Assembly (NCBI GenBank): GCA_017482945.1
Contig: JAFUMF010000154.1
Location: forward strand, 1-39,919
DNA length: 39,919 nt
Direction: 5' to 3'
Origin: Lachnospiraceae bacterium
Lineage (GTDB): Bacteria > Bacillota > Clostridia > Lachnospirales > Lachnospiraceae
The notes under the pieces were generated by a model. The model made no database searches. It saw nothing but the letters and a program-made list of their open reading frames with translations, and had not been told where the DNA came from. Positions 2,518-23,207 of this stretch are shown here, piece by piece. A program made the position numbers and the translations under genes. Positions within the stretch are counted from its first letter, which is position 1. Every line of letters begins with the position of its first letter.

Positions 2518-2561
2518 AGACGATGATTCGTGAAATGATTAGAGAGAGTAAGGAGAACATC

Positions 2562-4800: not shown

Positions 4801-5781
4801 TTAGATGCGGTAACATGTATTGCCCGGAGAGAAGGAGACTGGAAGAATCTTCGTTCCGGCAAACTCTCTTTCCTGATGGTAAAAAATATATTCGAAGGCT
4901 TCCTCTGCAATTGCTTTGGTATCCTGGTGGATAGAGGTAATCTTTGGAATGAACGAATCGTTATCAACAGCATCAATGCCGCAGATGGAAATATCCTCTG
5001 GAATTCTTACGCCTAGCACATTTGCACGGATAATAAAACCTTTCGCCATTTCATCATTCGAAGAAAGAATTGCGGTAGGCATGTTTGGCAGTGCATAGAA
5101 GTGATCGAAAGCTCCAAGTCCGCTGCTGATCGAGTAATCTCCCATATAAATATATTCGTCCGGGATGTCCAGTCCGAGTGAATTCATATAATTGCAGAAT
5201 ACTTCCCTGCGTTCTTTTCCGGCGATACAGTGCTTTTCGGCAGAAATGAAGCCGATTTTCTGATGATTCAGGCGAACCATGTGGTCTACGAGCATGCGGA
5301 TTGCACTTTCATTATCAGAACTGATTCGGTAAAAGTTTCCGGTAGCAGCATGAGGACCATCGAGAAGAACTGTAGGTATTGCGGAGGAAATGGAATTTAA
5401 CTGGGAAAAACTGGTCAGGATAATGCCCGCACAGTTGATGGATTTACAATACTGATAAAGATTCTGCTCCAAATCTTGTCTGCCATTGGTGTAAAAAACT
5501 GCAACAAAATAATTCTTTTCGGTAGCAAAGGATGTCAGGTAGTGCAGAATATCACAGTAGAACATGTTTTTAGGGCTGTCCATAATAACACAAATGACAT
5601 TTGAATATGGTGAAGAGGTTCTGGGACTATAGGAAGTCTCTTCAATGACTTTTAAAACTTTCTGAAGTGTTTCTTCCTGCAATTTTTCCGGAGTGCGAAG
5701 CGCTCGGGAAACAGTAGCGGTAGAAACTCCGGCAAGTCTTGCAATTTCTCTGATGTTAATTTTATCTCCGGATTGATTCAT
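4801..5781 (-). CDS. LacI-family transcriptional regulator
   Basis: The 326-residue protein has the standard LacI layout: an N-terminal helix-turn-helix and hinge (IREIARLAGVSTATVSRAL, about residues 10-28), then a periplasmic-binding-protein-like effector domain (SNDEMAKGF, ISICGIDAVDND near the C-terminus). Start ATG 5781 has AAGGAG upstream on the minus strand. It is divergent from the symporter-led operon and separated by about 400 bases that hold its own promoter, an operator touching it, and a second palindrome downstream of the operon promoter. It therefore probably represses both itself and the sugar/cyclitol operon, released by a substrate or metabolite. The effector is unknown. Confidence 0.9.
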   Translation of the reverse strand: MNQSGDKINIREIARLAGVSTATVSRALRTPEKLQEETLQKVLKVIEETSYSPRTSSPYSNVICVIMDSPKNMFYCDILHYLTSFATEKNYFVAVFYTNGRQDLEQNLYQYCKSINCAGIILTSFSQLNSISSAIPTVLLDGPHAATGNFYRISSDNESAIRMLVDHMVRLNHQKIGFISAEKHCIAGKERREVFCNYMNSLGLDIPDEYIYMGDYSISSGLGAFDHFYALPNMPTAILSSNDEMAKGFIIRANVLGVRIPEDISICGIDAVDNDSFIPKITSIHQDTKAIAEEAFEYIFYHQEREFAGTKILPVSFSPGNTCYRI

Positions 5782-6128: not shown

Positions 6129-6179
6129 ATGAAACAAACCGGGGCAAAAGAAAAAGTTGATACAAATAACGAAAGGTAG
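6129..6179 (+). CDS. Possible 16-residue leader ORF before the symporter
   Basis: An ATG with GGGAG eight bases upstream opens a 16-codon frame (MKQTGAKEKVDTNNER) that ends with TAG at 6177-6179. This is two bases before GTG 6181 and 13 bases before ATG 6193 of the symporter. The peptide is hydrophilic and resembles nothing I know. Its position suggests translational coupling, because ribosomes ending here would be placed on the symporter start, but it may also be chance. Confidence 0.35.
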   Translation: MKQTGAKEKVDTNNER

Positions 6180-6192
6180 GGTGAAACAAATT

Positions 6193-7818: not shown

Positions 7819-7911
7819 ATCGTGAACCATTCTGCTAAACAGGAAAAGTAGTGGAGATATTATAAAAGATATTGAAAACTGAATAGCATTTCGAAGAAAA
7901 GGAGAATTGTA

Positions 7912-8970
7912 ATGAAAGCAAATATCGCATTTATGTATGGACCGAAAGACTTAAGAATTGAGAACGTAGAAGTTCCGGAATTAAAACCGAATCAGGTGCT
8001 TGTAAAGACAAAAGCCTGTGGTATCTGTGGATCTGACGTGCATTGCTTCCTCGGCGAATCTGCTGAGGGAAGATACGATATCGCTCCGTATACACCGGGT
8101 CATGAAGTTGGCGGTGAGATTATTGCAGCAGGCAGTGAGATTAAAGGATTAAAGGTTGGCGACAAAGTAACTGCTGACTGCGTAATGGCTTGTGGAAAAT
8201 GCTACAACTGTAAAGAAGGTTTGATGCCGTCTGCATGTCTCAACATGAGAGAACTTGGTTTCCGTCCAGACTCCCCGGGCGGTTTTGGAGAGTACATGGT
8301 AATCGAAGAAGAATATGTACATAAGATTCCGGATGACTGGTCCTATGATATGGGCGCTTGGGTAGAGACTTTCTCCATCGGTTACTTCGGTATCTGGGGT
8401 AACGGTGGTTACATTGACGCTTCTGATTACTGTCTGGTTATGGGTGCAGGCCCGGTTGGTTTATCCGCAGCTATGGTTGCAAAGACATCTGGTGCGAAGG
8501 TTATCGTGTCTGATATGAACGCAGTGAGAAGAGAGCGTGCATTAAAATATGGTGCAGACGTTGTTCTGAATCCGGCGGATCCGGACTACTACGCACAGAT
8601 TAAGGCTGCTACAGACGGTCACGGTCCGAGCGTAATCGCAGAGGCATCCGGAAGCAATGCAGCATTACAGGCAATCTTTGATGTGGCAGGACACAGCTGC
8701 CGAGTAAATTTAATCGGTCATTCTATCGGTAGAAAGGTTCCGGTAGAAATCGGAAAAACAATCTGGAGCACATTAAAGATCAAAGGATCCGGCGGAACAA
8801 AGGACTGGGCTCAGAGAACGATCCGTTTCATGAGTGCAATTAAAGATAAATATGATTTTGACGCTTTGAATTCCCACCACATTCCGTTTAAAGATCTGGA
8901 TAAAGCGATGGATCTTGCAGTAAATCATCCGGAAGAGGCATTCAAGGTAATGCTGACATTCGAGGACTAA
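7912..8970 (+). CDS. Zinc-dependent medium-chain dehydrogenase, IolM-like candidate
   Basis: The 352-residue MDR alcohol/polyol dehydrogenase has the catalytic zinc site CGICGSDVH (Cys39) with GHE (His64, Glu65), a structural zinc lobe CGKCYNC with a further Cys, and the NAD-binding MGAGPVGLSAA motif near residue 177. The final spacing in the zinc lobe is one residue longer than the usual CxxCxxCx7C. It would oxidise a secondary alcohol with NAD(P). In Thermotoga-type inositol catabolism a zinc dehydrogenase (IolM) oxidises scyllo-inosose just before the creatininase-like IolN. The IolN-type gene here follows after 44 bases, so that role fits. A sorbitol- or other polyol dehydrogenase is the alternative. 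AAGGAG precedes ATG 7912. Confidence 0.8.
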   Translation: MKANIAFMYGPKDLRIENVEVPELKPNQVLVKTKACGICGSDVHCFLGESAEGRYDIAPYTPGHEVGGEIIAAGSEIKGLKVGDKVTADCVMACGKCYNCKEGLMPSACLNMRELGFRPDSPGGFGEYMVIEEEYVHKIPDDWSYDMGAWVETFSIGYFGIWGNGGYIDASDYCLVMGAGPVGLSAAMVAKTSGAKVIVSDMNAVRRERALKYGADVVLNPADPDYYAQIKAATDGHGPSVIAEASGSNAALQAIFDVAGHSCRVNLIGHSIGRKVPVEIGKTIWSTLKIKGSGGTKDWAQRTIRFMSAIKDKYDFDALNSHHIPFKDLDKAMDLAVNHPEEAFKVMLTFED

Positions 8971-9014
8971 TTTGTTACCCATCAAAGAATTAATATAGAA
9001 AAAGGAGAACGAAT

Positions 9015-10148
9015 ATGGCTAGAACAACTTACAAAAAAGAAGTTATGGGCGAGACCTGGTATACAACGGATTACCCGACAATCCATTTTGATAACAGTCC
9101 GGTTGGTCTTATGAAAAAGGAAGTATGGGAGGCCTCTGAGGAAGAAATCGACAAAATCCTTGAGGAGTATGGTCTTCCGGCAGAGTCCGAGCTTGGTAAA
9201 GCTGGCTGCTACATCCAGAATACACCAAGACATATTGCAATGGAAAAACGCCGTAAAAACGACGTAGTTCTTATTCCGATTGGAACAACTGAGAATCATG
9301 GTATTCACAATCCGTCCGGTCTTGATACATACATGGTTACACAGATTTGTGAAGGCGTTCGCCGTTACACAGCTAAAAAAGGTTATGAAGTAGCACTTGC
9401 ACTTCCGCCGATCAATTATGGTGGTCATCCGTACCATCACGTAGCAATGCCGGGAACTTACATGGTTACAGAAGAAGTGGTAAGAGAGACTTTAATTTAC
9501 ACCATGCTCGGTCTTTGGGATGATGGCTATAGAAAATTCATCCTTGTAAACAACCACGGACATAAGTGGATGCTTGAATCCGCAGTTCAGGAATTCTTCA
9601 AACGTTACCAGCTTCCGGCAATCGTTTCCGAGCTTGAGTGGCACCGTGCGATCCGCGAATTCTGGGTACCGATCGATGAGCCGGATTCCTTAACAACACA
9701 TTTTGTACATGCTGATGAAGCTGAGACAGCAGTTGCGAACCTTCTCTTTGGTGACATGGTTGACATGAGCGTTTGTGTAGATGCGCAGCCGAAAGCTATG
9801 GCATTAAAAGGCCATTATGACACTTCTGTAGACTCCTATGGTCGTCCGCATACTTGGTCTGAAGGTGAAGGTCATAACGTGATTGAGCGCTACGGTACTC
9901 CGGAAGGTGTTGTAGGTTATCCGTCCCGCGGTGACGCTTACAAAGCAAAACGTCCGATCGCTGCAATCTGCAAATATATCACTATGATGATTGATGATAT
10001 GCTTGAGAGCTTCCCGGCAGGCACAGCTCCGGTAGAGGGATTCACAACTCGTCCGAAGGAAGAAGTAGAAGGATGCTTCAAAGAGCCGCTTAGCGAGGGT
10101 TGGGTATCTGTTCATGAGCTTCCGAAACGTGGTATCTTTACTCGTTAA
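9015..10148 (+). CDS. iolN: Creatininase-family hydrolase, probable 3-dehydro-scyllo-inosose hydrolase
   Basis: This is a 377-residue creatininase-fold metal hydrolase. Metal-binding motifs are GTTENHG (Glu93, His95), the following GLDTYM aspartate, NNHGHK (about residues 179-184) and the HADEAETA acid near 235. The long N-terminal extension with MGETWYTTDYPTIHF and the C-terminal EPLSEGW resemble what I recall of the IolN group, which opens the ring of a diketo-inositol to give a linear keto-hexonate. Its position behind a zinc dehydrogenase and a sodium symporter supports a cyclitol pathway. Neither a Gfo/Idh-type inositol 2-dehydrogenase (IolG) nor a tagaturonate epimerase (IolO) is in this operon, so the substrate may differ or those steps are encoded elsewhere. 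Confidence 0.72.
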   Translation: MARTTYKKEVMGETWYTTDYPTIHFDNSPVGLMKKEVWEASEEEIDKILEEYGLPAESELGKAGCYIQNTPRHIAMEKRRKNDVVLIPIGTTENHGIHNPSGLDTYMVTQICEGVRRYTAKKGYEVALALPPINYGGHPYHHVAMPGTYMVTEEVVRETLIYTMLGLWDDGYRKFILVNNHGHKWMLESAVQEFFKRYQLPAIVSELEWHRAIREFWVPIDEPDSLTTHFVHADEAETAVANLLFGDMVDMSVCVDAQPKAMALKGHYDTSVDSYGRPHTWSEGEGHNVIERYGTPEGVVGYPSRGDAYKAKRPIAAICKYITMMIDDMLESFPAGTAPVEGFTTRPKEEVEGCFKEPLSEGWVSVHELPKRGIFTR

Positions 10149-10162
10149 TTAAGACATATACC

Positions 10163-10200
10163 GATGAGGCCAGAAGTAGAGAAAAGCTTTCGGCCTCATC
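10163..10200 (+). other. Intercistronic RNA hairpin between iolN and transketolase genes
   Basis: GATGAGGCC (10163-10171) and GGCCTCATC (10192-10200) pair perfectly, with partial inner pairing of GAAG to CTTT. The stem is followed by a run of C, not T, so it is not an intrinsic terminator. It more likely stabilises or processes the polycistronic mRNA and separates expression of the two halves of the operon. Confidence 0.55.
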
Positions 10201-10233
10201 CCCCCCTTAAAAATGGAGAAGGAGAGAATAGTT

Positions 10234-11079
10234 ATGATGGATGATGCAAAGAAAAAAGCGCTGAAGCGTTTTTCAATCCAGACCCAAATGGAAATTGTAA
10301 AGATGATTTCCCGTGTACCGGCAGGTCATATCGGCGGTTCTCTTTCCATCACCGATTTGCTGTCCGTACTTTATAATAAACATATGAAAATTGACCCAAA
10401 GAATCCAAAGTGGGAGAACAGAGACTGGTTGGTACTTTCAAAAGGTCACTGCGGTCCTGCGTTATATGCCACTCTGGCACTGAAAGGATATTTCCCGATG
10501 GAACAGCTGGAAACATTAAACTCTCCGGGAACGAATCTTCCGAGTCATGCAGACAGAAATCGTACAGTAGGTATTGATATGACGACAGGTTCCTTGGGGC
10601 AGGGTGCATCTACCGCAGCCGGTGTGGCGGTTGGCATGAAAATGGATGGAAAAGATAACAAAGTATATCTGATTCTGGGCGATGGAGAGCTGAATGAAGG
10701 CCAGGTGTGGGAGATGGCCATGATGGCCAGCACAAAGAAACTGGACAATTTGATCGCTTTTGTAGACTATAATAAACTGCAAATCGATGGACGTACAGAT
10801 ACAGACGAGGTCTGTAATTTGGGCGATATCTGCGCAAAATTTGCTGCGTTCGGCTGGTATGCACAGAGAGTGGACGGTCACGATATTGAGGCGATTGATG
10901 AAGCAATTGCCAATGCAAAAGATCATAAAGGAGATCCGTCTGTGATTGTTCTGGATACGGTGAAAGGAAATGGCTGGAGCAGAATTGCCGATACCGCAGG
11001 AAGTCATAGCAGAGGTGTATCTCCGGAAGAACTGGAAGAGGCACTGGCTGAGATGCAGACAGTGATGGACAATATTTAA
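10234..11079 (+). CDS. Transketolase, N-terminal (TPP-binding) subunit
   Basis: The 281-residue protein is the thiamine-diphosphate-binding half of a split transketolase. It shows the GHIGGSLSITD substrate/TPP segment, SKGHCGPALYA, TGSLGQG, and the TPP motif running from GDGELNEGQ to the following DYNKLQIDG. ATG 10234 is chosen because AAGGAG at 10217-10222 lies in front of it; the in-frame ATG 10213 falls before this site. The C-terminal half is encoded 13 bases downstream, and the two should form a heterotetramer. Transketolases move a two-carbon ketol unit between sugar phosphates. The duplicate, operon-borne copy suggests the substrate carbon enters the pentose/hexose phosphate pool or that the pair has a specialised donor. 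Confidence 0.88.
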   Translation: MMDDAKKKALKRFSIQTQMEIVKMISRVPAGHIGGSLSITDLLSVLYNKHMKIDPKNPKWENRDWLVLSKGHCGPALYATLALKGYFPMEQLETLNSPGTNLPSHADRNRTVGIDMTTGSLGQGASTAAGVAVGMKMDGKDNKVYLILGDGELNEGQVWEMAMMASTKKLDNLIAFVDYNKLQIDGRTDTDEVCNLGDICAKFAAFGWYAQRVDGHDIEAIDEAIANAKDHKGDPSVIVLDTVKGNGWSRIADTAGSHSRGVSPEELEEALAEMQTVMDNI

Positions 11080-11092
11080 GGAGGGCGATGTC

Positions 11093-12061
11093 ATGAGTAA
11101 AATTATACTTTCGAAAGAACGTGGAAAAGATGTATCTGACATGCGTACTGCTTACTGTGAAGCGATGATAGAAATGGCAGAAAATGATGAGCGAATCGTT
11201 GCACTGGACGCGGATCTTATGACAGCTATGGGAATGAAGCCTTTTGCGAAAAAGTTCCCGGAGAGAACTGTTGATTGCGGAATTCAGGAATCCAATATGA
11301 TTGGTGTTGCCTGTGGACTCTCCGTATGGGGAAAAGTTCCGTTTGCACATACATTTGGACCGTTCTGTACCAGAAGGGCATGTGACCAGATTTTTATGTC
11401 AGGTGCATATAACAGAGCGAATGTAAAAGTGGTTGGTTCAGATCCGGGTATTACTGCTGCATATAACGGTGGTACTCATATGCCATTTGAGGATATGGGA
11501 ATTATGCGCGGAATTCCGACAATGACTGTTGTAGAGCCTACTGATATTGTAATGTTGAAAAATCTTCTTCCGAAGATTGCCGACCAGTATGGCATGTTTT
11601 ATATGAGACTTGTGCGAAAAGGCGTGCGCAAGGTTTACGAGGAAGGTTCTGAATTTGAAATTGGAAAAGCTGTAAAACTGTCAGATGGAAATGATGTGAC
11701 GATTATTGCCAGCGGATACTGCGTGGCAGAAGCGCTGGATGCAGCAGAACTGTTAAAAGCAGAAGGAATTAGTGCCCGAGTATTAAATATGTTTACCTGG
11801 AAACCGTTAGACGAAGAGGCAGTGCTTGCTGCGGCAGCAGAAACAGGAGCAATTGTGACAGCAGAGAATCACAATGTAATCAATGGTCTGGGAAGTGCAG
11901 TCAGCGAGTTATTGGCAAAGAAGAACCCAACAGTGATGGAGATGGTTGGTGTTCAGGATGAATTTGGTGAAGTTGGTCCGGAAAGTTATTTAAGAGAGCG
12001 CTTCGGATTGACAGCAGAGTATATTGCTGAGGCAGTAAGAAAAGTATTGAAGAGAAAATAA
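11093..12061 (+). CDS. Transketolase, C-terminal subunit
   Basis: The 322-residue partner of the preceding gene holds the pyrimidine-binding domain (residues about 10-175), with the catalytic glutamate in DCGIQESNMIG, and the C-terminal transketolase domain (about 190-320, VTIIASGYCVAEALDAA). The length and order are those of split transketolase/DXS-like pairs common in Firmicutes and Archaea. AGGAGG stands just before ATG 11093, and the short gap to the N-terminal gene supports balanced expression of the two subunits. Substrate specificity cannot be read from the sequence. Confidence 0.88.
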   Translation: MSKIILSKERGKDVSDMRTAYCEAMIEMAENDERIVALDADLMTAMGMKPFAKKFPERTVDCGIQESNMIGVACGLSVWGKVPFAHTFGPFCTRRACDQIFMSGAYNRANVKVVGSDPGITAAYNGGTHMPFEDMGIMRGIPTMTVVEPTDIVMLKNLLPKIADQYGMFYMRLVRKGVRKVYEEGSEFEIGKAVKLSDGNDVTIIASGYCVAEALDAAELLKAEGISARVLNMFTWKPLDEEAVLAAAAETGAIVTAENHNVINGLGSAVSELLAKKNPTVMEMVGVQDEFGEVGPESYLRERFGLTAEYIAEAVRKVLKRK

Positions 12062-12145
12062 GTCAATTTTAATAATATACCGCATGTACCGGTTATCGTC
12101 GTGGAAATGCAGCTTGATCAGGTTTATTAGTCAGGAGGGCAAATA

Positions 12146-13120
12146 GTGAGCAGTAAAATAAATACAATTGGTGTTTTGACTAGCGGCGGCGATGCGCCCG
12201 GTATGAATGCAGCGGTACGTGCAGTAGTACGCCGTGGCATTGCCAAAGGTAAACTGATTAAGGGAATTAACCGGGGCTACGCTGGTATGCTCAAAGAGGA
12301 AATCCAGGATATGGATGCGCGAAGTGTCTGCAATATTCTCCAGAGGGGCGGTACGTTTCTGGAATCGGAACGGTGCCCAGAGTTCGAACTGGAGGAGATG
12401 CAGGATAAAGCGATTGATATATGTAGAAAACATGGGATTGATGCACTGGTAGTCATTGGCGGTGATGGTTCGTTTCGAGGAGCACAAAAACTTGCAGGAA
12501 AGGGCTTAAATGTCATCGGAATTCCAGGAACCATTGATGGTGATATCGGATGTACCGATTATACTATTGGTTTTGATACTGCAGTCAATACAGCGATGCA
12601 TGCCATCGACAATATTCGCGATACGGCTTCATCCCATGAAAAGTGCAGTATCATTGAAGTGATGGGGAGAAATGCCGGACATATTGCACTCTGGTGCGGC
12701 ATTGCAAATGGTGCCGAACAAGTATTGATTCCGGAAAAATTTGATTATAACGAAGTGAAGGTTCTCCAGAAGATTGTGAAGAATCGAGAGAATGGAAAAA
12801 AGAACAATATCATCATAAACGCAGAAGGTATCGGTGACACACCGAAGATGGCGAAGCGAATCTCTGCAATTGGAAACATTAGTATTCGGACAACGATATT
12901 AAGTTATATTCAGCGAGGTGGCGTGCCTACCTGTAAAGATCGTGTATTTGCCTCCGTCATGGGAGCAAAGGCGGTTGACCTCCTTTGCGAAGGTGCCTGC
13001 AACCGGGTGGTCGCGTACAAGGACGGACAGTTTGTGGATTTTGATATTGATGAAGCACTGGAAATGAGAGGAGGAATCTCGGAGTATATGTACGAGATTC
13101 TTGAAGATCTTTCGATGTGA
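12146..13120 (+). CDS. pfkA: ATP-dependent 6-phosphofructokinase
   Basis: The 324-residue PfkA-type kinase starts at GTG 12146 after AGGAGGGC. It has the ATP loop LTSGGDAPGMNAAVR, GGDGSFRG (glycine at the position that separates ATP-using from PPi-using enzymes), the active-site PGTIDGD (Asp131), TDYTIGFDTA, VMGRNAGHIAL and the substrate arginine in SYIQRGG. In the E. coli enzyme the catalytic motif is TIDND; here Asn is Gly, next to the catalytic Asp, so kinetics or substrate (for example another ketohexose or ketose phosphate) could differ. It lies between transketolase and an iron alcohol dehydrogenase, so it is probably a pathway-dedicated copy, not the housekeeping one. Confidence 0.85.
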   Translation: MSSKINTIGVLTSGGDAPGMNAAVRAVVRRGIAKGKLIKGINRGYAGMLKEEIQDMDARSVCNILQRGGTFLESERCPEFELEEMQDKAIDICRKHGIDALVVIGGDGSFRGAQKLAGKGLNVIGIPGTIDGDIGCTDYTIGFDTAVNTAMHAIDNIRDTASSHEKCSIIEVMGRNAGHIALWCGIANGAEQVLIPEKFDYNEVKVLQKIVKNRENGKKNNIIINAEGIGDTPKMAKRISAIGNISIRTTILSYIQRGGVPTCKDRVFASVMGAKAVDLLCEGACNRVVAYKDGQFVDFDIDEALEMRGGISEYMYEILEDLSM

Positions 13121-13200: not shown

Positions 13201-14316
13201 ATGATTCAAATTATTATGAAACCTGAATTACATAAATTCAGTACATGCAAAGAATTTGCCGAGGAGTTTCAGATTGGGGAGAATGATCTAATTCTGACCA
13301 ATGAATATATTTACCAGCCGTTTTTTGGACAACTTGATTTGAAGTGCCACACGGTGTTTCAGGAGAAGTACGGAATGGGCGAGCCGAGCGACGTGATGGC
13401 AGAGGCGATTCTAAACGACATCGCAAAACTGAACTGTAAGCGCATCATTGCCATCGGCGGTGGTACAATTATTGATCTGGCGAAGGTGTTTGCTGTAGCT
13501 GATACGACTGACATCGATGCATTGTATGCGAAGATGCCGAATTTGACAAGAACCATGAAGCTCGTTATGGTTCCGACCACATGTGGCACCGGCAGTGAGG
13601 TGACCAGCATTGCAGTACTTAATCGTACTCGTATGGGAACCAAGATGGGCCTGGTAGCGCCGACCATGTATGCGGATAGCGCAGTTCTTATTCCTGAATT
13701 ACTACAGAGCTTGCCGCTCAAGGTGTTTGCGACCAGTTCGATTGATGCCCTGGTTCATGCAGTAGAATCCTGTTTATCTCCGAACGGAACATCTTACACG
13801 AAAGCGTTTGGCTATAAAGCAATTGAAATGATTATCAACGGTTATCGTAAGCTGGTGAAAAACGGACTGGATACCCGCAAGGAGCTAATGGAAGATTTTC
13901 TGATTGCCTCTAATTTCGCCGGTCTTGCATTTGGCACCGCTGGTTGCGGCACAGTGCATGCGATGGCTTATCCACTGGGGGGGCAGTATCATGTAGCACA
14001 TGGGGAAAGTAACTATGCTGTATTTACCGGTGTCATGAAAGAATACATGCGTCACAGAGAAGATGGTGAAATCGCTGTTATGAACGACTTTCTGGCAAAA
14101 TTACTTGGCTGCGATGTGGCAAAGGTGTATGATGCACTGGAAGATTTATTGAACATGGTGTTACCGAAGAAGGCGCTCCGGGAGTATGGTGTGAAAGAAG
14201 AAGAACTGGCTGAGTTTGCTAAGTCTGTCATTGACAACCAGCAGCGGTTACTTAAGAATAGTTTTATTCCAATGACGCAGGAAATGGTTTGTAAAATTTA
14301 TAGAGATTTATATTAA
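13201..14316 (+). CDS. Iron-containing alcohol dehydrogenase, 4-hydroxybutyrate-dehydrogenase-like
   Basis: The 371-residue group III alcohol dehydrogenase shows the NAD-binding IGGGTIID, PTTCGTGSE, and metal ligands in SSIDALVHAVE (Asp, His) and TVHAMAYPLGGQYHVAHGE (two His). Length and sequence style closely follow the clostridial 4-hydroxybutyrate dehydrogenases, which interconvert succinate semialdehyde and 4-hydroxybutyrate. ATG 13201 gives that family length; an upstream in-frame GTG 13117 would add an unsupported extension. It is the last gene of the LacI-linked operon, 80 bases after pfkA and before a terminator. A near paralogue occurs at 18967. The true substrate may be another aldehyde formed in this pathway. 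Confidence 0.85.
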   Translation: MIQIIMKPELHKFSTCKEFAEEFQIGENDLILTNEYIYQPFFGQLDLKCHTVFQEKYGMGEPSDVMAEAILNDIAKLNCKRIIAIGGGTIIDLAKVFAVADTTDIDALYAKMPNLTRTMKLVMVPTTCGTGSEVTSIAVLNRTRMGTKMGLVAPTMYADSAVLIPELLQSLPLKVFATSSIDALVHAVESCLSPNGTSYTKAFGYKAIEMIINGYRKLVKNGLDTRKELMEDFLIASNFAGLAFGTAGCGTVHAMAYPLGGQYHVAHGESNYAVFTGVMKEYMRHREDGEIAVMNDFLAKLLGCDVAKVYDALEDLLNMVLPKKALREYGVKEEELAEFAKSVIDNQQRLLKNSFIPMTQEMVCKIYRDLY

Positions 14317-15991: not shown

Positions 15992-16020
15992 AGTATACTC
16001 CATAAGTTATTAGGTGTAAA
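15992..16020 (-). promoter_or_regulatory. Carrier promoter
   Basis: On the minus strand TTTACA (16020-16015), 17 bases, and TATACT (15997-15992) form a sigma-A promoter with start site near 15985. The -35 overlaps an inner palindrome, AAATATG-N7-CATATTT (16019-16039), the expected activation site of a LysR-type regulator. The same TTTACA-N17 arrangement recurs at 18517-18545. Confidence 0.75.
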
Positions 16021-16039
16021 ATATGTGATTCGCATATTT

Positions 16040-16057
16040 CCATAGGCAACACCTATG
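16040..16057. promoter_or_regulatory. LysR-type operator upstream of the carrier
   Basis: ATAGG-N5-CCTAT (15-bp dyad at 16042-16056 with a T-N11-A core) is centred near -64 from the carrier start site, the canonical LysR recognition position. A second inverted pair, TAGGTGT (16011-16017) with ACACCTA (16049-16055), ties it to the -35 region. It is also about 60 bases upstream of the regulator's own expected start site. Confidence 0.75.
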
Positions 16058-16164: not shown

Positions 16165-17064
16165 ATGCGTCTGGAACAGTTACGATATATTATTGAAATT
16201 GCAGACACAGGCTCGTTTACGATGGCCAGTGAACGATTGTTTATTGCTCAGCCCAGCATTAGCCAGGCGGTGACAGCTCTGGAAAAAGAACTGAATGTCA
16301 CACTGTTTACCAGATACCGCACCGGCGCAGTGCCGACGCAGGTGGGACTTCAGGTCATTGCCCATGCGAGGGAGATCATGCGGTCTGTGGGGGAGATTGA
16401 AAAGCTTTCTGTCAATGATTACTCGAAGATTAATACGATTATCAATGTTGGCGTTATTCCGACACTGAGTGCCGTTGTCCTTCCACATGTAATTTCTTCC
16501 TATAGAAGTATTTTTCCGAATGTGGCGATCAAGACTAAAGAGGAAGGCACACAAAAAATCGTAAAAGACTGTCTGAAAGGCGATATTAACCTGGGACTGA
16601 TCGCAACCCATGGAAAAAGAATTCAAGAGCCGGATATTTTGTACCAGCACTTGTTTGATGGAAGATTGATGGCGTATGTGGGGGCGAGATCTTCGCTTGC
16701 AAGTCGACAGAAAATCACGTTCAGGGAACTATTGCCGTTTCAACTGTTCTTATACGGAGAAGAATTCTCCCTACATAAATATTGCCTGGAGCAGATCAGC
16801 CAGTATGGTCAGCCGAATGTCATGTCAACGACTCATAATCCGGAATCCATCAAGCGATTTGTTTCACAGACCGAGGCCGTTGGATTTGGTCCGGATATTT
16901 CCCTGATGGGAGATATTTATGTGAAATCAAGAACCATTTTCCCGATTGAGATCACGGACGCATCGGAGATTGAGTTTGGATTAGTGACCAGTAAGAAGAG
17001 AAAGCCGGATGTGGCAGTGGATGCGTTTATTAAGGAAATCTTGGCTTATCTGCCGAGACAATGA
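16165..17064 (+). CDS. LysR-family transcriptional regulator
   Basis: The 299-residue protein begins with the typical winged helix (MRLEQLRYIIEIADTGSF and the following ASERLFIAQPSISQAVTALE, about residues 1-45) and continues with an effector-binding domain. AAGGGG precedes ATG 16165. It is divergent from the carrier. Two T-N11-A dyads of identical architecture, one in front of the carrier and one in front of the operon starting at 18634, make these its probable targets. The inducer is likely an intermediate of the lactone/keto-acid pathway; LysR proteins usually activate when bound to it. Confidence 0.9.
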   Translation: MRLEQLRYIIEIADTGSFTMASERLFIAQPSISQAVTALEKELNVTLFTRYRTGAVPTQVGLQVIAHAREIMRSVGEIEKLSVNDYSKINTIINVGVIPTLSAVVLPHVISSYRSIFPNVAIKTKEEGTQKIVKDCLKGDINLGLIATHGKRIQEPDILYQHLFDGRLMAYVGARSSLASRQKITFRELLPFQLFLYGEEFSLHKYCLEQISQYGQPNVMSTTHNPESIKRFVSQTEAVGFGPDISLMGDIYVKSRTIFPIEITDASEIEFGLVTSKKRKPDVAVDAFIKEILAYLPRQ

Positions 17065-17092: not shown

Positions 17093-17140
17093 AAAATCTC
17101 TACATTTTGTCGATTATACTCGACAAAATGTAGAGATTTT
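17093..17140. terminator. Perfect 21-bp hairpin after the LysR gene
   Basis: AAAATCTCTACATTTTGTCGA (17093-17113; outer four A included) is exactly complementary to 17120-17140, with loop TTATAC, ending in a T-run. It can terminate in both directions. The -35 of the next gene begins three bases further on. Confidence 0.85.
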
Positions 17141-17205: not shown

Positions 17206-18420
17206 ATGATTAAACGTGAATTATATATGAGTCAGATCCGTCCATTTATTGGTAATGAGTTGATTAAGGTTCTGACCGGTATCCGACGTAGTGGAAAATC
17301 TGTGATGTTGGAACTGATTCAGGAAGAACTTTTGGAATCCGGCACGTGCGCGGATCAGTTCATCTCATTTAATTTTGAGCAAATGAGAAATGAGCATTTA
17401 TGTACAGCACAGGCGCTTCATGAAGAAGTTATGCGTCGCTGTGCTAATATTAAGGGAAAAGTCTACCTGTTTTTTGATGAGATTCAGGAAGTTACAAATT
17501 GGGAAAAGTGTGTAAACTCACTCCGTTTGGATTTAGATTGCGATATTTATATTACTGGATCCAATGCAAAACTTCTTTCCGGCGAATTGGCGACCTATCT
17601 TGGTGGACGTTATGTTGAATTTGTGATTTATCCGTTTTCCTTTTCTGAATTCATCGAGCTGTATCAAACGATTGATTCTGATACAACACTGGCTCAATGC
17701 TTTCAAAAGTATTTGCTTGCGGGCGGAATGCCGTATCTGGCAAATCTTCGGTATGAAGAGGAACCGGGAAAAAAATATCTGGAAGACTTGTTCAATTCAG
17801 TTGTTCTGAAGGATATCGTTAAAAGAAATAAGGTCAGAGATGTCGATTTACTGGAACGTATTATTTCATATGTAATGGCAAATGCAGGAACAACATTCTC
17901 TGCAACTTCTATTTCCAAATTTCTCAAAAATGAGCAACGCACTGTGTCGAAGGACACTGTTTTAAACTACCTGAAATATTGTGTGGATGCATACCTGTTC
18001 TATCAGGCCAGTCGTCAGGATGTTCAGGGAAAGCAGATTCTTGCAACAAATGAGAAGTATTATATTGCAGACCATGGTATTCGTGAGGCAGTTTATGGAG
18101 GCAATATGAAGGAAATCAACCTGATCCTGGAAAATATTGTTTACATGGAGTTAAGGAGACGCGGCTTTACGATTACTGTAGGAAAAGCAGGCGATAAAGA
18201 AATTGACTTTGTATGTGAAAAGCGAGGACAAAAATTATATATTCAGGTAGCGTATCTCCTGGCATCTGAAGAGACAATTGCGCGAGAGTTTGGTGTTTAT
18301 GATATGGTTAGAGATAATTTCCCTAAATATGTTGTATCGTTGGATGAGTTTGATATGAGCCGTAATGGGATTAAGCATCGCAATATTCGGGATTTATTAA
18401 TAGAAACAGAATGGAATTAA
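17206..18420 (+). CDS. AAA-family ATPase with DUF4143 domain
   Basis: The 404-residue protein has an N-terminal P-loop domain with Walker A GIRRSGKS (residues 25-32), Walker B LFFDEIQEV and the sensor-like ITGSNAKLLS, then a C-terminal DUF4143-type domain with DRxxxE-like elements (ENIVYMELRRRGF, KEIDFVCEKRG). This two-domain family is abundant in gut bacteria and Archaea; the C-terminal part resembles nuclease-fold domains. Its cellular role is not established. ATG 17206 follows AAGAAGGGG; the longer frame from 17143 starts inside the promoter. It has its own promoter and terminator and separates the LysR gene from its target operon, which suggests independent insertion unrelated to the catabolic pathway. 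Confidence 0.85.
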   Translation: MIKRELYMSQIRPFIGNELIKVLTGIRRSGKSVMLELIQEELLESGTCADQFISFNFEQMRNEHLCTAQALHEEVMRRCANIKGKVYLFFDEIQEVTNWEKCVNSLRLDLDCDIYITGSNAKLLSGELATYLGGRYVEFVIYPFSFSEFIELYQTIDSDTTLAQCFQKYLLAGGMPYLANLRYEEEPGKKYLEDLFNSVVLKDIVKRNKVRDVDLLERIISYVMANAGTTFSATSISKFLKNEQRTVSKDTVLNYLKYCVDAYLFYQASRQDVQGKQILATNEKYYIADHGIREAVYGGNMKEINLILENIVYMELRRRGFTITVGKAGDKEIDFVCEKRGQKLYIQVAYLLASEETIAREFGVYDMVRDNFPKYVVSLDEFDMSRNGIKHRNIRDLLIETEWN

Positions 18421-18435
18421 AAATGAATGGGTGTA

Positions 18436-18476
18436 CTGCCAGAGTTCTTGTAAATAAGGGCTCTGGCAGATTTTTT
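18436..18476 (+). terminator. Terminator of the AAA ATPase gene
   Basis: CTGCCAGAG (18436-18444) pairs exactly with CTCTGGCAG (18461-18469), followed by A and a T-run. It ends directly before the LysR-type operator of the next operon. Confidence 0.88.
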
Positions 18477-18480
18477 ATAT

Positions 18481-18496
18481 ATAGGCGCCGCCTATG
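18481..18496. promoter_or_regulatory. LysR-type operator upstream of the lactonase/aldolase operon
   Basis: ATAGG-CGCCG-CCTAT is a 15-bp dyad with a T-N11-A core, centred near -64 from the expected start site. From this dyad to the -35 hexamer the sequence and every distance match the carrier element at 16015-16056 read on the opposite strand (31 of 42 positions in my hand alignment). Confidence 0.75.
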
Positions 18497-18516
18497 GTTT
18501 CATCATAATCGCATAT

Positions 18517-18545
18517 TTTACAACAATCCTCCAATCCGATACAAT
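18517..18545 (+). promoter_or_regulatory. Promoter of the lactonase/aldolase operon
   Basis: TTTACA (18517-18522), a 17-base spacer and TACAAT (18540-18545) lie 22 bases after the LysR dyad. The weak -35 is typical of an activator-dependent promoter. The leader to the first gene is about 80 bases. Confidence 0.75.
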
Positions 18546-18633
18546 AAAACCAAGCAAACAAACACGGCATGCGCAGCCCGTTCCATTAACGAGAGGTTAC
18601 ATTTATTATTAATCGGAAAAGGAGAATATGAAT

Positions 18634-18948
18634 ATGGCAAGAAATCACTGGACAATCCTCGGAGAATTAGATCCGGAGTTAAACGACAAGATCACAGCAT
18701 GGAGAACTCATCTTGTAAACGATAACGACAAATTAGAGCGTAAAACACGTGAGCTGATTAATGTGGCTATGGCTACAATTTTAAAACAGGACGCTGTGAT
18801 TGTAGCACACGCAAAGATGGCGTACCAGTTCGGCGCAACCAAGAATGAAATCCTTGCAACAGTAGAACAGGCACTGACAATGGGAGGTTTCCCTTCTTTC
18901 AGATGTGCAATGTTAGCGTTGGATGAGTTCTTCAAAGAAGCAGAATAA
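18634..18948 (+). CDS. Carboxymuconolactone-decarboxylase (CMD/AhpD)-fold protein without the redox CxxC
   Basis: The 104-residue protein has the all-helical CMD/AhpD layout (TRELINVAMATIL, then HAKMAYQFGATKNEI). Redox-active family members have CxxCxxxH at the start of the second conserved helix; here only the His remains (DAVIVAHAK) and the single Cys sits near the C-terminus. It is therefore not expected to be a peroxidase. A lactone-, isomerase- or decarboxylase-type role, or a subunit role, is possible but unproven. ATG 18634 gives proper spacing to AAGGAG; ATG 18628 is too close. It is the first gene of the LysR-controlled operon, 18 bases before the dehydrogenase. Confidence 0.78.
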   Translation: MARNHWTILGELDPELNDKITAWRTHLVNDNDKLERKTRELINVAMATILKQDAVIVAHAKMAYQFGATKNEILATVEQALTMGGFPSFRCAMLALDEFFKEAE

Positions 18949-18966
18949 ACGAACGGAGGGGTAGCG

Positions 18967-20091
18967 ATGCTGCAGCTTGTATTTAAGCCTGAGTTACATC
19001 AGTTTGATACAGTCAAAGAATTTGCAAAGGAATTCGCTCTCGGTGAGGGAGACCTTGTAATCACAAACGAATATATTTACCAGCCATATTTTGGCGATCT
19101 TGATTTAAAGTGCGATGTTCTCTACCAGGAGAAATACGGAAGAGGCGAGCCAAACGACGAGATGGTCGAGGCCATGATCGCAGACATGAACAAGATGGGA
19201 GCCCACCGCCGAGTCATCGGCATTGGCGGTGGTACCGTTCTCGATATTTCCAAAATTTTCGCACTGAAGTACTTAAGCCCGATTGAAAAGCTGTATGATA
19301 GAGAGCTTCCGGTGGAAAAAGACAAAGAACTGCTTCTGGTTCCGACCACTTGCGGCACCGGCTCTGAGGTGACCAATATTGCGATCCTTGCATTTTTAAA
19401 GAGAAATACAAAGTTTGGACTCGCGGACGATGCGATGTATGCAGACAAAGCGGTTTTAATTCCGGAATTTTTAGCAAACCTTCCATACCCGGTATTTGCG
19501 ACCAGCTCCATCGACGCACTGGTGCATGCTGTCGAGTCCAGCCTTTCCCCTAAGGCAACTCCGTTTACTAAGTTATTCGGATATAAGGCGATCGAAATGA
19601 TCTTAAAAGGATATCTTAAGATGATCGAGTATGGTCCGGAGGCAAGAATTCCACTGTTGAATGAATTTCTCATTGCTTCCAATTACGCAGGACTTGCATT
19701 TGGTACGGCAGGATGTGCAGCGGTTCATGCCATGAGCTACCCGCTTGGCGGAACTTTCCATGTGGCACACGGAGAATCCAACTACGCGATCTTCCGCGGA
19801 GTCATCGATAATTACCTGGAAATCAAGAAAGACGGCGCCATCGCAGAGTTGGCTTTGTTCATCGGCGGAGTTCTCGGTTGTACGGCGGATGAGGCATATG
19901 ATAAAATGTTTACAGTGCTGGACAAGATTCTCACAAGAAAGACACTCAAAGAGTACGGCGCAGATGAGGAACTGCTAAAGGCATGGACCGATGAGGTCAT
20001 GAACGGCCAGCAGAGACTGATGAAAAATAATTTTGTAACATTGGATGCGAATCGTGTCCTTAAAATTTATCGTGAATTGTACGAGAGATAA
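18967..20091 (+). CDS. Iron-containing alcohol dehydrogenase, 4-hydroxybutyrate-dehydrogenase-like (second copy)
   Basis: The 374-residue protein has the same motif set as the enzyme at 13201: IGGGTVLDISK, PTTCGTGSEVT, SSIDALVHAVES and AVHAMSYPLGGTFHVAHGE for NAD and metal binding. Long stretches are nearly identical to that paralogue (TNEYIYQP, DLDLKC, QEKYG.GEP), so the two arose from one ancestor. It probably reduces an aldehyde or semialdehyde released by the aldolase encoded downstream, or oxidises the corresponding alcohol. GGAGGGG precedes ATG 18967. The 4-hydroxybutyrate assignment of the family should not be taken as its substrate here. Confidence 0.85.
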   Translation: MLQLVFKPELHQFDTVKEFAKEFALGEGDLVITNEYIYQPYFGDLDLKCDVLYQEKYGRGEPNDEMVEAMIADMNKMGAHRRVIGIGGGTVLDISKIFALKYLSPIEKLYDRELPVEKDKELLLVPTTCGTGSEVTNIAILAFLKRNTKFGLADDAMYADKAVLIPEFLANLPYPVFATSSIDALVHAVESSLSPKATPFTKLFGYKAIEMILKGYLKMIEYGPEARIPLLNEFLIASNYAGLAFGTAGCAAVHAMSYPLGGTFHVAHGESNYAIFRGVIDNYLEIKKDGAIAELALFIGGVLGCTADEAYDKMFTVLDKILTRKTLKEYGADEELLKAWTDEVMNGQQRLMKNNFVTLDANRVLKIYRELYER

Positions 20092-20119
20092 TTCGTTAAG
20101 GAAGAAAAAGGAGATAGCT

Positions 20120-21460
20120 ATGAGTGAAAAGACAGTAACCATGCAGTTGGCCGAATATTCAGTGGCAGACCATTGGGATACTTTTACAGAAAGAGATATC
20201 CAAATGACGAGACTTTCTTACGTTGACTGGGTGGCATCTGCCATCACTGGTGTGACAGAAGAGAGTGCGTTAAAGCTTATGGAGCTGGCAGAGGAAGAAC
20301 ACGTGAGCGGTGATTGCGTGATCATCGGTCAGGGCAAGAAAACATCCCCGGCCAATGCGGCTCTGATCAACGGAACCGAGTCCCATGCCATTGATTTTGA
20401 TGATATCCATGATTTCCTGTCCTTACATCTTTGCTCCCCGGTTCTTCCGGCAGCATTGGCAGCAGCAGAGTATAAGAAGGCAGACGGAAAATCCCTGATT
20501 AACGGTACCATCAATGGTATGCAGATTATGGTTGCGCTTTCTGCAGGAATTATGCCGGAGCATTATAACAACGGGCGCTGGCATGCGACCGGCACCATCG
20601 GTGTATTTGGCGCAGCGGCAGCGGCTGGTGCGATTTTAGAACTGAATCCGGAGCAGATGTGTAACGCGTTTGGTATTTGCGCGGGTCTTTGCTGCGGAAT
20701 CCAGCTGAATTTTGGAACTATGGCAAAGCCGATGGCGGCAGGTATGGCAGCGAAGAACGGTGTCATGGCAGCAATTCTTGCAAGCCGTGGATTTACCGGA
20801 AGAGCAGACATTTTTGATACAGACTTCCTTGACAATATCGCGACCAAGAAAGTCGACCTGAATCAGATCATCGAGCGCTTAAAAGGCGGCTACGGTGTTC
20901 ACGAACTCCGCTTTAAGAGATACCCATGCGGTGCCCCGACCCACAGCGGAATCATCAACTGTAAGAAAATCCTCGCTGAGCATCCACATGCGATCGAGGA
21001 TATTGAAAAAATCGTATTTGAACCGTATCCACGTGCGATTCGTCTTGTAGGCAACATGGATCCACAGACTGGTCTTCAGGGCAAATTCAGCATCGGCTTT
21101 ACAGCAGCAGCACAGATTGTTTTCGGACAGGTTACCATTGAGACATTCACAGACGAGAATGTAAAGAATCCGCAGGTTCAGTACTTGCTCCCACGCATGG
21201 AACTGGTGGCATGTGACGAGTTTACACCGTCCCGCGGCGGCCGGGCGACCATGTACTTCAAAGATGGAACCAGCTATACCAACTCTACATATCTGCTTGG
21301 GCACGATCTGGACCTGAACGAGGCAGAGGCAGATGTATCCGGCAAATATGCGGAAATCATGAATGCGAGAGTTGGTGTGGAGAAGGCAGAGAAGATTTAT
21401 GATTTTCTGATGAAGCTGGAGACACTGGATAGCGTAACTGAATTGAGTGAAGTCCTGTAG
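20120..21460 (+). CDS. MmgE/PrpD-family protein
   Basis: The 446-residue protein belongs to the MmgE/PrpD fold, which includes 2-methylcitrate dehydratase, cis-aconitate decarboxylase and iminodisuccinate epimerase. Recognisable parts are the NGTESHAIDFDDIHD segment, HATGTIGVFGAAAAAG, KPMAAGMAAKNG and the RFKRYPCGAPTHSG stretch around residues 275-290. It probably dehydrates, isomerises or decarboxylates a polycarboxylate or sugar acid. ATG 20120 follows AAAAGGAG; the in-frame extension upstream overlaps the dehydrogenase gene. No citrate synthase or methylisocitrate lyase is nearby, so a propionate (methylcitrate) role is unlikely. Confidence 0.85.
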   Translation: MSEKTVTMQLAEYSVADHWDTFTERDIQMTRLSYVDWVASAITGVTEESALKLMELAEEEHVSGDCVIIGQGKKTSPANAALINGTESHAIDFDDIHDFLSLHLCSPVLPAALAAAEYKKADGKSLINGTINGMQIMVALSAGIMPEHYNNGRWHATGTIGVFGAAAAAGAILELNPEQMCNAFGICAGLCCGIQLNFGTMAKPMAAGMAAKNGVMAAILASRGFTGRADIFDTDFLDNIATKKVDLNQIIERLKGGYGVHELRFKRYPCGAPTHSGIINCKKILAEHPHAIEDIEKIVFEPYPRAIRLVGNMDPQTGLQGKFSIGFTAAAQIVFGQVTIETFTDENVKNPQVQYLLPRMELVACDEFTPSRGGRATMYFKDGTSYTNSTYLLGHDLDLNEAEADVSGKYAEIMNARVGVEKAEKIYDFLMKLETLDSVTELSEVL

Positions 21461-21524
21461 ATCGGTCGAAAGAGCCGCAGAGGAGACGGCGAGGCCGATT
21501 TGGCAGGAGCTGGAGGCAACGAAA

Positions 21525-22184
21525 ATGACTTTAGAAGAAAAGAAGTATTGGATAGAAGCCTATAAAAAATATCCGACCGGCAATGTGTCCGATGCCATGG
21601 ATAATCTCGAAATCCGCCGGGGAGTGGTTCTGGGACTCCATGCATTGGACAACCACCAGCCGAAAGCAGCCGGATTTGCGCTGACGGTCCAGCAGATGAG
21701 AAGAAAAACAGCTTATGACGGAAAGAATCTGGCGCGTCAGGGCGGAATCATCGATTCCGAGACACAAGAAGGTGACATTCTGGTCATCGACATGGGCGGC
21801 ATCATGGACGTGTGTACCGGCGGAGCACTGCTTGCAGTCCGTGCTCAGATGCGCGGCGTAAACGGTGAACTGACTAACGGCTGTCTGCGTGATGCGGACG
21901 AGATCGCGGAGCTTGGTTTCCCGGTTTATTGTGCCGGGACCGTCCCGGTGAAGAGCGCAAGGGATGTGGAGACCATTGGCGTGAATGTTCCGGTCATGAT
22001 GGGCGGTGTGCAGATTTGTCCGGGTGATCTGATTCTCATGGATCGCACTGGTGTTGTGTGTGTGCCGCAGGATCGTCTGGAAGAAGTTCTGGCGGAAGCT
22101 GTGAAAATCAATGAGCGAGAAGACAAAATGGGAACATTGATCCGGGCAGGTCATTCCATTAAAGAAGCCAGAATGATTAAGTAG
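21525..22184 (+). CDS. RraA-like aldolase/decarboxylase
   Basis: The 219-residue protein is of the RraA-like family, whose catalytic members are class II pyruvate aldolases (4-hydroxy-4-methyl-2-oxoglutarate aldolase) and oxaloacetate decarboxylases. The metal/substrate segment NGELTNGCLRDADEIAELGF contains the family Gx(5-6)RD motif, and GDILVIDMGG and CPGDLILMDRTGVVCVP are typical. I chose ATG 21525 because GGAGGC is seven bases ahead; the in-frame GTG 21447 overlaps the upstream gene. In this operon it would cleave a keto acid to pyruvate or a similar acid and an aldehyde, the latter being a logical substrate for the dehydrogenase two genes upstream. The mRNA-inhibitor role of E. coli RraA is unlikely here. 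Confidence 0.85.
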   Translation: MTLEEKKYWIEAYKKYPTGNVSDAMDNLEIRRGVVLGLHALDNHQPKAAGFALTVQQMRRKTAYDGKNLARQGGIIDSETQEGDILVIDMGGIMDVCTGGALLAVRAQMRGVNGELTNGCLRDADEIAELGFPVYCAGTVPVKSARDVETIGVNVPVMMGGVQICPGDLILMDRTGVVCVPQDRLEEVLAEAVKINEREDKMGTLIRAGHSIKEARMIK

Positions 22185-22236
22185 GGATAAACCGAAATTT
22201 GCAAGAAAATCGATATATATTGAGGAGGAAACAAAT

Positions 22237-23118
22237 ATGTTATTCGAAGTAATCGATCCGAGATTTGAAGAATTAGTAGATGTAAATGCGGTTCTGGAAC
22301 CAATTTCCGTAGGCCATAAAGTTACCGAAGGCATCATCTGGTGGCCGCAGCAGAACAGCCTGATCTTCTCTGACATGGGAGTTGGCAAGGTGTATAAGTG
22401 GGATCCAAAAACATACGAGACCACAGCAATCAAGTATCCGAGTAATATTTCCAACGGCAATTTCGTTGATCCGGAGGGACGTATTGTAACATGTGAACAT
22501 GCGACAAGTTCTATCACACGTATGGAGCCAGATGGACGTTATATCAAGACTCTGGCAACACACTATGACGGCAAAGAGTTCAACAGCCCGAACGATGTGA
22601 TTGTTGACTCCAAAGGCCGTATCTGGTTCACAGACCCGACATTTGGCCGTACAAGCCCGCTTGTGGGTGTAAAACGTGACCTTGTCATGGGATTCCAGGG
22701 TGTATACTGTGTGAAGGAAGATGGAGAAGTGGTGATGGCCCGCAACGATTTTGAGCAGCCGAACGGCCTCTGTATGGAGATCGGTGAGAAGACCATGCTA
22801 GTAAATGACACGCCGAAGCTTTGCATTCGCCGTTTTACAGTAGAAGATGACTGCACATTAAGCGGCGGTGAAGTGGTTTGTAAGTGTGACGGACGTCCGG
22901 ACGGAACAAAGATCGATAAGGATGGAAACATCTGGACAACTATCAGTGGAAACATGCAGGTATTTGACAAGAACGGCGTATTACTTGGAAACATCAAGGT
23001 GCCAGGCACATGCCGTAACTTCTGCTTTGGCGGCGAGAATAATGATGAACTGTATTTTGCGTGTGAGACCATTTATCGTATTAAGCTGAAAACACAGGGC
23101 GCAGAATTCTTTAAATAG
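22237..23118 (+). CDS. SMP-30/gluconolactonase-family lactonase
   Basis: The 293-residue protein is a six-bladed beta-propeller hydrolase of the SMP-30/gluconolactonase family. Metal-site signatures include the N-terminal TEGIIWW glutamate, SNGNFVDPEGRIV, and NSPNDVIVDSKGRIWFTDPT with its Asn and Asp ligands. It should open a sugar or polyol lactone to the free acid with a divalent metal. No signal peptide is visible, so it acts in the cytoplasm. GAGGAGG precedes ATG 22237. It is the last gene of the operon and is followed by a terminator. A lactonase placed with a carrier for organic acids suggests that the substrate is oxidised or taken up as a lactone. Confidence 0.87.
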   Translation: MLFEVIDPRFEELVDVNAVLEPISVGHKVTEGIIWWPQQNSLIFSDMGVGKVYKWDPKTYETTAIKYPSNISNGNFVDPEGRIVTCEHATSSITRMEPDGRYIKTLATHYDGKEFNSPNDVIVDSKGRIWFTDPTFGRTSPLVGVKRDLVMGFQGVYCVKEDGEVVMARNDFEQPNGLCMEIGEKTMLVNDTPKLCIRRFTVEDDCTLSGGEVVCKCDGRPDGTKIDKDGNIWTTISGNMQVFDKNGVLLGNIKVPGTCRNFCFGGENNDELYFACETIYRIKLKTQGAEFFK

Positions 23119-23175
23119 GAAAGATAGAGGTGAAGCGGTTTAGGCTTCTAAATAAAGGAGAATGTATATACTTTG

Positions 23176-23207
23176 GAGCGGAATTCATAAGAGTTCCGCT
23201 CTTTTTT
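23176..23207 (+). terminator. Terminator of the lactonase operon
   Basis: GAGCGGAA (23176-23183) pairs with TTCCGCTC (23194-23201), extended inward with one G-T pair to a four-base loop, and six T follow. It lies just upstream of the first LexA box. Confidence 0.88.

Follow-up and report, generated by a model that had tools for sequence, protein, structure and literature searches.

What is an operon that joins an SMP-30 lactonase, an MmgE/PrpD family enzyme, an RraA-like protein, an iron-containing alcohol dehydrogenase (Fe-ADH) and a protein of the carboxymuconolactone decarboxylase (CMD) fold for? The question is raised by a 39,919-nucleotide contig of Lachnospiraceae bacterium (GCA_017482945.1, JAFUMF010000154.1; hereafter the window), in which these genes lie near a carrier gene and a LysR-type regulator. 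A first-pass annotation had proposed a pathway of lactone opening, dehydration or isomerization, cleavage to a keto acid such as pyruvate plus an aldehyde, and aldehyde reduction. The system is real, rare and coordinately regulated, a catabolic system built from known families; the findings point to breakdown of a carboxylate lactone with 4-hydroxybutyrate as the end point.

The five genes form one plus-strand unit (18628-23118) with small intergenic gaps, and since terminator-like hairpins bracket this unit, it can be regarded as a single transcription unit. The family assignments of the first-pass annotation hold, with all five open reading frames (ORFs) in place on the plus strand and Pfam scores far above the cut-offs, and the proposal of one functional unit is supported as well. 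None of the five proteins reaches any NCBIfam equivalog cut-off. Catalytic residues are intact. The SMP-30 protein retains E31, N119, N176 and D222 (E31, N176 and D222 being the metal ligands), the Fe-ADH its metal ligands D183, H187, H254 and H268, and the RraA-like protein the catalytic R122 and D123 of the G-x-x-R-D motif. The MmgE/PrpD enzyme contains both the N- and C-terminal Pfam domains and keeps H89, D92, H103, Y149, H155, K203 and K266, matched by eye to the conserved His/acid/His/Tyr/His/Lys/Lys set (PMC12290011). Its nearest solved relatives are the iminodisuccinate epimerase 2hp0 and the Bacillus subtilis ‘IRG1’ structure 7bra, and it fails the 2-methylcitrate dehydratase equivalog (TIGR02330, 40.9 versus 458 bits). 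The RraA-like protein scores far below the 4-carboxy-4-hydroxy-2-oxoadipate/4-hydroxy-4-methyl-2-oxoglutarate aldolase (LigK/PcmE) equivalogs (TIGR02798, 66.1 versus 304.5 bits; PRK09262, 72.9 versus 179 bits), so the proposed aldol cleavage to pyruvate and an aldehyde loses its privileged place and β-decarboxylation becomes an equal option. The CMD protein has a single Cys and no CxxC, and is therefore not an AhpD-type CxxC peroxidase. It also fails the 4-carboxymuconolactone decarboxylase (PcaC) equivalog (TIGR02425, 26.9 versus 155.7 bits), and its structure model is nearest to 2af7, named as a γ-carboxymuconolactone decarboxylase (Z 14.0, root-mean-square deviation 6.0, 93 aligned).

Shared regulation extends the system beyond these five genes. 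A composite operator, ATAGG-N5-CCTAT-N18-TATTTTACA with a spacer of exactly 18 bp, stands in the carrier/LysR intergenic region and again before the operon; its dyad, ATAGG-N5-CCTAT, occurs at these two places in the window versus 0.02 expected by chance. In the operon upstream region, promoter-like hexamers lie at 18517-18545; across the sites of all three genomes TATTTTACA overlaps the likely -35 region. A collection scan found orthologous loci in two further genomes only, those of Clostridium transplantifaecale (L011) and Candidatus Enterocloster faecavium (L012). Across the three genomes there are ten non-redundant composite sites, nine exact and one with a mismatch. The three sites of C. 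transplantifaecale precede the carrier, the CMD operon and, by 134 bp, an unlinked SMP-30 gene, which makes SMP-30 part of the system there despite its separate location. The five of E. faecavium precede an NHL-ADH pair (the site with the mismatch), the carrier, an aldehyde dehydrogenase (ALDH) gene, the CMD operon and AbfD. Elsewhere in the three genomes, 1.14 Mb of sequence contained no site at three or fewer mismatches; regulon membership in the source genome is a lower bound, further members being possible on its contigs outside the sequence scanned. The exact dyad also occurs without TATTTTACA at L053:10468 and L087:11985; both occurrences were put down to chance. Judged by these sites, the carrier, operon and partner genes probably form a LysR-controlled regulon, with binding of LysR to the operator predicted. 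The shared operator also supports the earlier linkage of carrier and LysR to the operon.

The operator before AbfD in E. faecavium (L019:10459-10501; AbfD ATG at 10566) places 4-hydroxybutyryl-CoA dehydratase in the regulon of at least one species. All three genomes encode AbfD (89-92% identity). It is co-regulated in this one relative and co-located in the others: in C. transplantifaecale some 8 kb separate it from the operon, and in E. faecavium it also lies on the same contig as the locus. The AbfD-type protein of the source genome (92%) is encoded on a short contig, G000:C73, adjoined by a CoA-transferase-like ORF (AbfT). We take these proteins to be AbfD from their sequence type (HpaB fold), not from a curated AbfD model. 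The next gene on C73 is syntenic with the C. transplantifaecale gene preceding a LuxE-like ORF, and the LuxE-like ORF opens the window, which suggests that a contig break separates AbfT-AbfD from the window. Over its full length, the operon Fe-ADH shares 57% identity with PDB entry 30sm, ‘Cvir-Hbd2’ (E 2e-136); a fold search returned the Fe-ADH fold only, with 30sm not among the matches listed. Given this homology and the presence, proximity and shared operator of AbfD, the pathway most likely ends in the conversion of succinic semialdehyde (SSA) to 4-hydroxybutyrate, 4-hydroxybutyryl-CoA and crotonyl-CoA.

The system has a narrow distribution. A PrpD orthologue occurs in one of 299 members of the family and one of 391 of the class, both times the source genome itself, and its congeners lack one (survey count 1/3). 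The genus of C. transplantifaecale yields one in eight genomes, and among 17 genomes of the E. faecavium genus the species’ own PrpD is the sole orthologue, the remaining matches being 26-30% identical. Scattering of the enzymes as single genes among relatives, which would have told against a pathway, is not the pattern seen: relatives mostly lack the genes altogether, and no RraA or SMP-30 gene adjoins other PrpD loci of this family or of the E. faecavium genus. In the two orthologous loci, identity to the window is 84-85% for the carrier, 75 and 83% for SMP-30, 75-77% for CMD, 68 and 80% for PrpD, 59-69% for the Fe-ADH, and 76% and 54% for LysR. C. transplantifaecale keeps the order carrier-LysR-CMD-ADH-PrpD-RraA, with SMP-30 on a separate contig, and has two RraA copies (66% and 60% identical to that of the window). 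The source assembly is a draft in 250 contigs (completeness 93.6%, contamination 3%), but a chimeric window is made less likely by the match of its gene order to the whole-genome assembly of C. transplantifaecale. The E. faecavium locus comprises LysR, an NHL protein, ADH, carrier, ALDH, CMD, a homologue of NADP-dependent isocitrate dehydrogenase (IDH), PrpD and SMP-30, and its genome has no close RraA anywhere. The claim that exactly this set forms a unit is thus too strict, with RraA absent from one relative, where an IDH variant and an ALDH are added, and SMP-30 unlinked, though co-regulated, in the other. In plasmid searches every match was below 60% identity, and no consistent substrate emerges from the SMP-30 plasmid neighbourhoods. 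Two looser arrangements were also seen. A genome of the same family (G271; L064:8169-10955) has a 40%-identical carrier divergent from an adjoining 30%-identical Fe-ADH gene, and a Variovorax plasmid (L097:4753-9603) has an MmgE/PrpD gene with tricarboxylate-transporter receptor genes on one side and a TcuA-type tricarballylate dehydrogenase on the other.

Which class of substrate would enter such a system? About 50,000 MmgE/PrpD homologues are known, mostly without assigned function, and the characterized substrates, namely 2-methylcitrate, cis-aconitate, iminodisuccinate and methylsuccinate, probably share an enolate mechanism (PMC12290011). In Pseudomonas aeruginosa, an MmgE/PrpD gene adjoins that of a 2-hydroxyparaconate lactonase of a different lactonase family (PMC9875883). 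The second RraA locus of C. transplantifaecale (L031:9868-16884, G299:C9) encodes an aconitate hydratase (830.8 bits, cut-off 612), a PF10282 lactonase, a MatC/CitMHS carrier and two LysR proteins. Verticiella sediminum and Sinorhizobium sp. RAC02 have a lactonase, RraA and MmgE/PrpD beside tripartite tricarboxylate transporter genes, these sets being just 25-38% identical to the window proteins. The IDH homologue in the E. faecavium operon (L012:8755-9969) keeps S94, N96, R100, R109, R132, K211, D251 and D274 and has Phe at the catalytic Tyr139, a position occupied by Tyr in the housekeeping copy and in three solved IDHs; RraA and this variant may fill one step, a β-decarboxylation. A carboxylate substrate is suggested by the substituted succinates used by characterized MmgE/PrpD enzymes and the carboxylate family of the carrier, and likewise by the second RraA kit, the tricarboxylate-transporter neighbours and the ligand-keeping IDH variant. 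This makes a citrate- or itaconate-type carboxylate lactone more likely than either a sugar lactone or an aromatic compound, and the sugar lactones, aldonates and aromatic lactones initially suggested as growth substrates become less likely in view of the carriers and neighbours.

Our leading reading, tentative and held at a little under even confidence, is that the LysR regulon converts a lactone-forming, succinate-type acid (citrate-, isocitrate- or itaconate-like) to SSA and on to 4-hydroxybutyrate and butyrate. The carrier would import the acid or its lactone, and SMP-30 would open the lactone. MmgE/PrpD would then form an enolate on the succinate unit and dehydrate it to a β-oxo acid, from which RraA, or the IDH variant in E. 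faecavium, would remove the β-carboxyl or which it would cleave; the CMD protein may add a further decarboxylation. The operon Fe-ADH would reduce SSA to 4-hydroxybutyrate, and AbfT and AbfD would take this to crotonyl-CoA and then butyrate. The reaction order first proposed survives as one option only and is not established. Mass balance, free of redox steps, fits two candidates: itatartarate (C5H8O6), formed from 2-hydroxyparaconate, gives SSA on loss of H2O and CO2, and hydroxycitrate (C6H8O8), formed from its lactone, gives 2-oxoglutarate on the same losses and SSA on loss of another CO2. The hydroxycitrate variant would run via oxalosuccinate to 2-oxoglutarate and then SSA. Both compounds are candidates only, and literature searches on hydroxycitrate and oxalosuccinate found nothing relevant. 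In its most specific form, which we consider doubtful, the proposal is an undescribed anaerobic route under a single regulon from a carboxylate lactone of fungal, plant or host origin (2-hydroxyparaconate/itatartarate or hydroxycitrate lactone) through SSA to butyrate, by MmgE/PrpD dehydration and β-decarboxylation catalysed by RraA or the IDH variant. If true, both the MmgE/PrpD and the RraA family would gain a new activity.

Several points weigh against a lactone-to-SSA pathway. Its substrate, step order, reaction types and enzyme activities are all predicted. AbfD is operator-linked in one of the three genomes, and the AbfD promoter of the source genome has no site. The role of Cvir-Hbd2 as a 4-hydroxybutyrate dehydrogenase is read from its deposited name. 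The CMD protein fits no clear pathway step. To our knowledge, RraA-like proteins of the PRK08245-like subfamily are uncharacterized; β-decarboxylation by RraA is an extrapolation from relatives with oxaloacetate decarboxylase activity. A C6 substrate would require a 2-oxoglutarate decarboxylase, and a thiamine diphosphate (ThDP) enzyme is found in E. faecavium alone. That enzyme was considered for the role and rejected: its gene lacks the operator, and neither of the other genomes has an orthologue.

Other chemistries could use the same genes. SMP-30 might open a sugar-acid (aldonate or aldarate) lactone, PrpD dehydrate the product and RraA split it into pyruvate and an aldehyde, for example tartronate semialdehyde, which the Fe-ADH would reduce. 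Most SMP-30 proteins are sugar lactonases, the relatives of RraA act as pyruvate aldolases, and in marine bacteria the nearest plasmid SMP-30 genes (40-46%) adjoin TRAP transporters and HpaI-type or KDGal genes. We regard this as unlikely, since the known MmgE/PrpD substrates are all substituted succinates and none a sugar acid, the carrier is DcuC-like, the regulon includes 4-hydroxybutyryl-CoA dehydratase, and E. faecavium dispenses with RraA while its remaining genes, ADH and LysR excepted, are 75-85% identical.

The E. faecavium locus itself raises a second alternative, a fermentation of isocitrate lactone or aconitate in which SMP-30 opens the lactone, PrpD substitutes for aconitase, RraA is auxiliary in two genomes, and IDH and a ThDP decarboxylase yield SSA in E. 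faecavium. The position of the IDH gene between CMD and PrpD, its retained tricarboxylate-binding residues and an AlsS-like ThDP enzyme near the locus fit this scheme. It is nonetheless quite unlikely in light of the loss of Tyr139 from the operon IDH but not from the housekeeping enzyme, the absence of such an IDH from the source genome and C. transplantifaecale, and the ThDP gene without an operator.

We consider it improbable that the operon is a non-orthologous counterpart of 4-oxalomesaconate metabolism. In that scheme a lactone, for instance 2-pyrone-4,6-dicarboxylate, would be opened, PrpD or aconitase would hydrate the product to 4-carboxy-4-hydroxy-2-oxoadipate, and RraA would split this into pyruvate and oxaloacetate. 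RraA does match the LigK/PcmE models (66 bits), and the combination of lactonase, hydratase and RraA recurs, once with aconitase replacing PrpD and also in aerobes. But that score is below the LigK cut-off of 304.5, the scheme needs neither the 4-hydroxybutyrate dehydrogenase nor CMD nor AbfD, RraA is dispensable in E. faecavium, and it is not evident where a gut anaerobe would obtain the substrate. It is highly improbable that the system breaks down a muconolactone-type or aromatic-derived compound, CMD acting as the carboxymuconolactone decarboxylase that the name of 2af7 would suggest, given the PcaC score (26.9 against 155.7 bits), a regulon without ring-cleaving or aromatic-activating genes and a presumably anaerobic lifestyle.

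The preferred lactone-to-SSA pathway has partial counterparts among known systems. The 4-aminobutyrate/succinate route to butyrate (AbfH, AbfT, AbfD) is alike in its 4-hydroxybutyrate dehydrogenase-like Fe-ADH and in AbfT/AbfD, here near the locus; its SSA comes from 4-aminobutyrate or succinyl-CoA, whereas here SSA would come from a lactone via SMP-30, PrpD and RraA. The P. aeruginosa itaconate/methylsuccinate cluster PA0878-0886 likewise pairs a lactonase, PA0880, with an MmgE/PrpD protein, PA0881, and acts on branched C5 dicarboxylates (PMC9875883, PMC12290011). That cluster differs in its aerobic CoA-thioester route (Ict/Ich/Ccl), its lack of RraA, SMP-30 and 4-hydroxybutyrate dehydrogenase, and its lactonase, a small ring-cleaving-dioxygenase-like protein. 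The lower pathway of gallate/protocatechuate 4,5-cleavage (LigI-LigU-LigJ-LigK) shares lactone opening, hydration and an RraA-family aldolase, but uses other lactonase and hydratase families and has no link to 4-hydroxybutyrate, and the window RraA falls below the LigK cut-off. The second RraA locus of C. transplantifaecale, with its 60%-identical RraA, has a similar functional kit, although its hydratase and lactonase are of unrelated families and the regulon operator is absent. Literature searches on the combination found no described pathway with this exact set, in agreement with the first-pass annotation; every enzyme family is known, and the pathway as a whole appears undescribed.

Coordinates are collected in the table. 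The gene reading of the first-pass annotation was correct, except that it overlooked the second Fe-ADH, the AAA/DUF4143 gene and the link to 4-hydroxybutyryl-CoA dehydratase. The second Fe-ADH gene has no composite operator upstream and possibly serves a different supply route. The AAA_14/DUF4143 ATPase gene is flanked by hairpins (17093-17140 and 18436-18469) and is probably an insertion, since C. transplantifaecale lacks a gene at that position. An inositol catabolism cluster occupies 6157-13120, with a LacI regulator at 4801-5781; it contains a Na+/solute symporter, an IolM-like scyllo-inosose dehydrogenase, a split transketolase, a 6-phosphofructokinase and IolN, a creatininase-family 3-dehydro-scyllo-inosose hydrolase (264.7 bits, cut-off 245). 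The genes at 162-3977, which we take by eye to encode LuxE-like, LuxC-like acyl-CoA reductase and AMP-ligase proteins, are kept near AbfD in relatives.

Table. Features of the operon, its operators and adjoining genes (window positions; bit scores with Pfam cut-offs)
Feature	Position	Strand	Details
CMD-fold protein	18628..18948 (start probably 18634 by orthologues)	+	CMD, 60.5 bits (cut-off 23)
Fe-ADH, Clostridium-type 4-hydroxybutyrate dehydrogenase-like group	18967..20091	+	ADH_Fe_C, 136.6 bits (cut-off 27)
MmgE/PrpD family enzyme	20120..21460	+	MmgE_PrpD_N, 190 bits (cut-off 32)
RraA-like metal-dependent lyase, aldolase or β-decarboxylase	21525..22184	+	107.5 bits (cut-off 24.5)
SMP-30/gluconolactonase-family lactonase	22237..23118	+	SGL, 156 bits (cut-off 26)
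Operator of operon	18481..18522	+	dyad 18481-18495, N18, TATTTTACA 18514-18522
Operator towards carrier	16015..16056	-	dyad 16042-16056, N18, TATTTTACA 16015-16023
Strong terminator-like hairpin, 5' of operon	18436..18469	+	
Terminator-like hairpin, 3' of operon	23175..23202	+	
DcuC/GntP-like carboxylate carrier, 438 aa	14580..15896	-	DcuC, 39.8 bits (cut-off 23.1)
LysR-type regulator	16165..17064	+	HTH_1, LysR_substrate
Second 4-hydroxybutyrate dehydrogenase-like Fe-ADH, adjoining inositol genes	13201..14316	+	56% identical to operon Fe-ADH
AAA_14/DUF4143 ATPase gene, unrelated, between LysR and operon	17206-18420		

Three of the five families brought together here, MmgE/PrpD, RraA-like and non-Cys CMD proteins, are large and mostly uncharacterized. 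With its defined end point (SSA/4-hydroxybutyrate) and an operator that can serve as a reporter, this small co-regulated set opens the chemistry of these families to direct tests. The pathway would add a gut-bacterial route to butyrate from an organic acid of dietary, fungal or host origin that may itself be antimicrobial.

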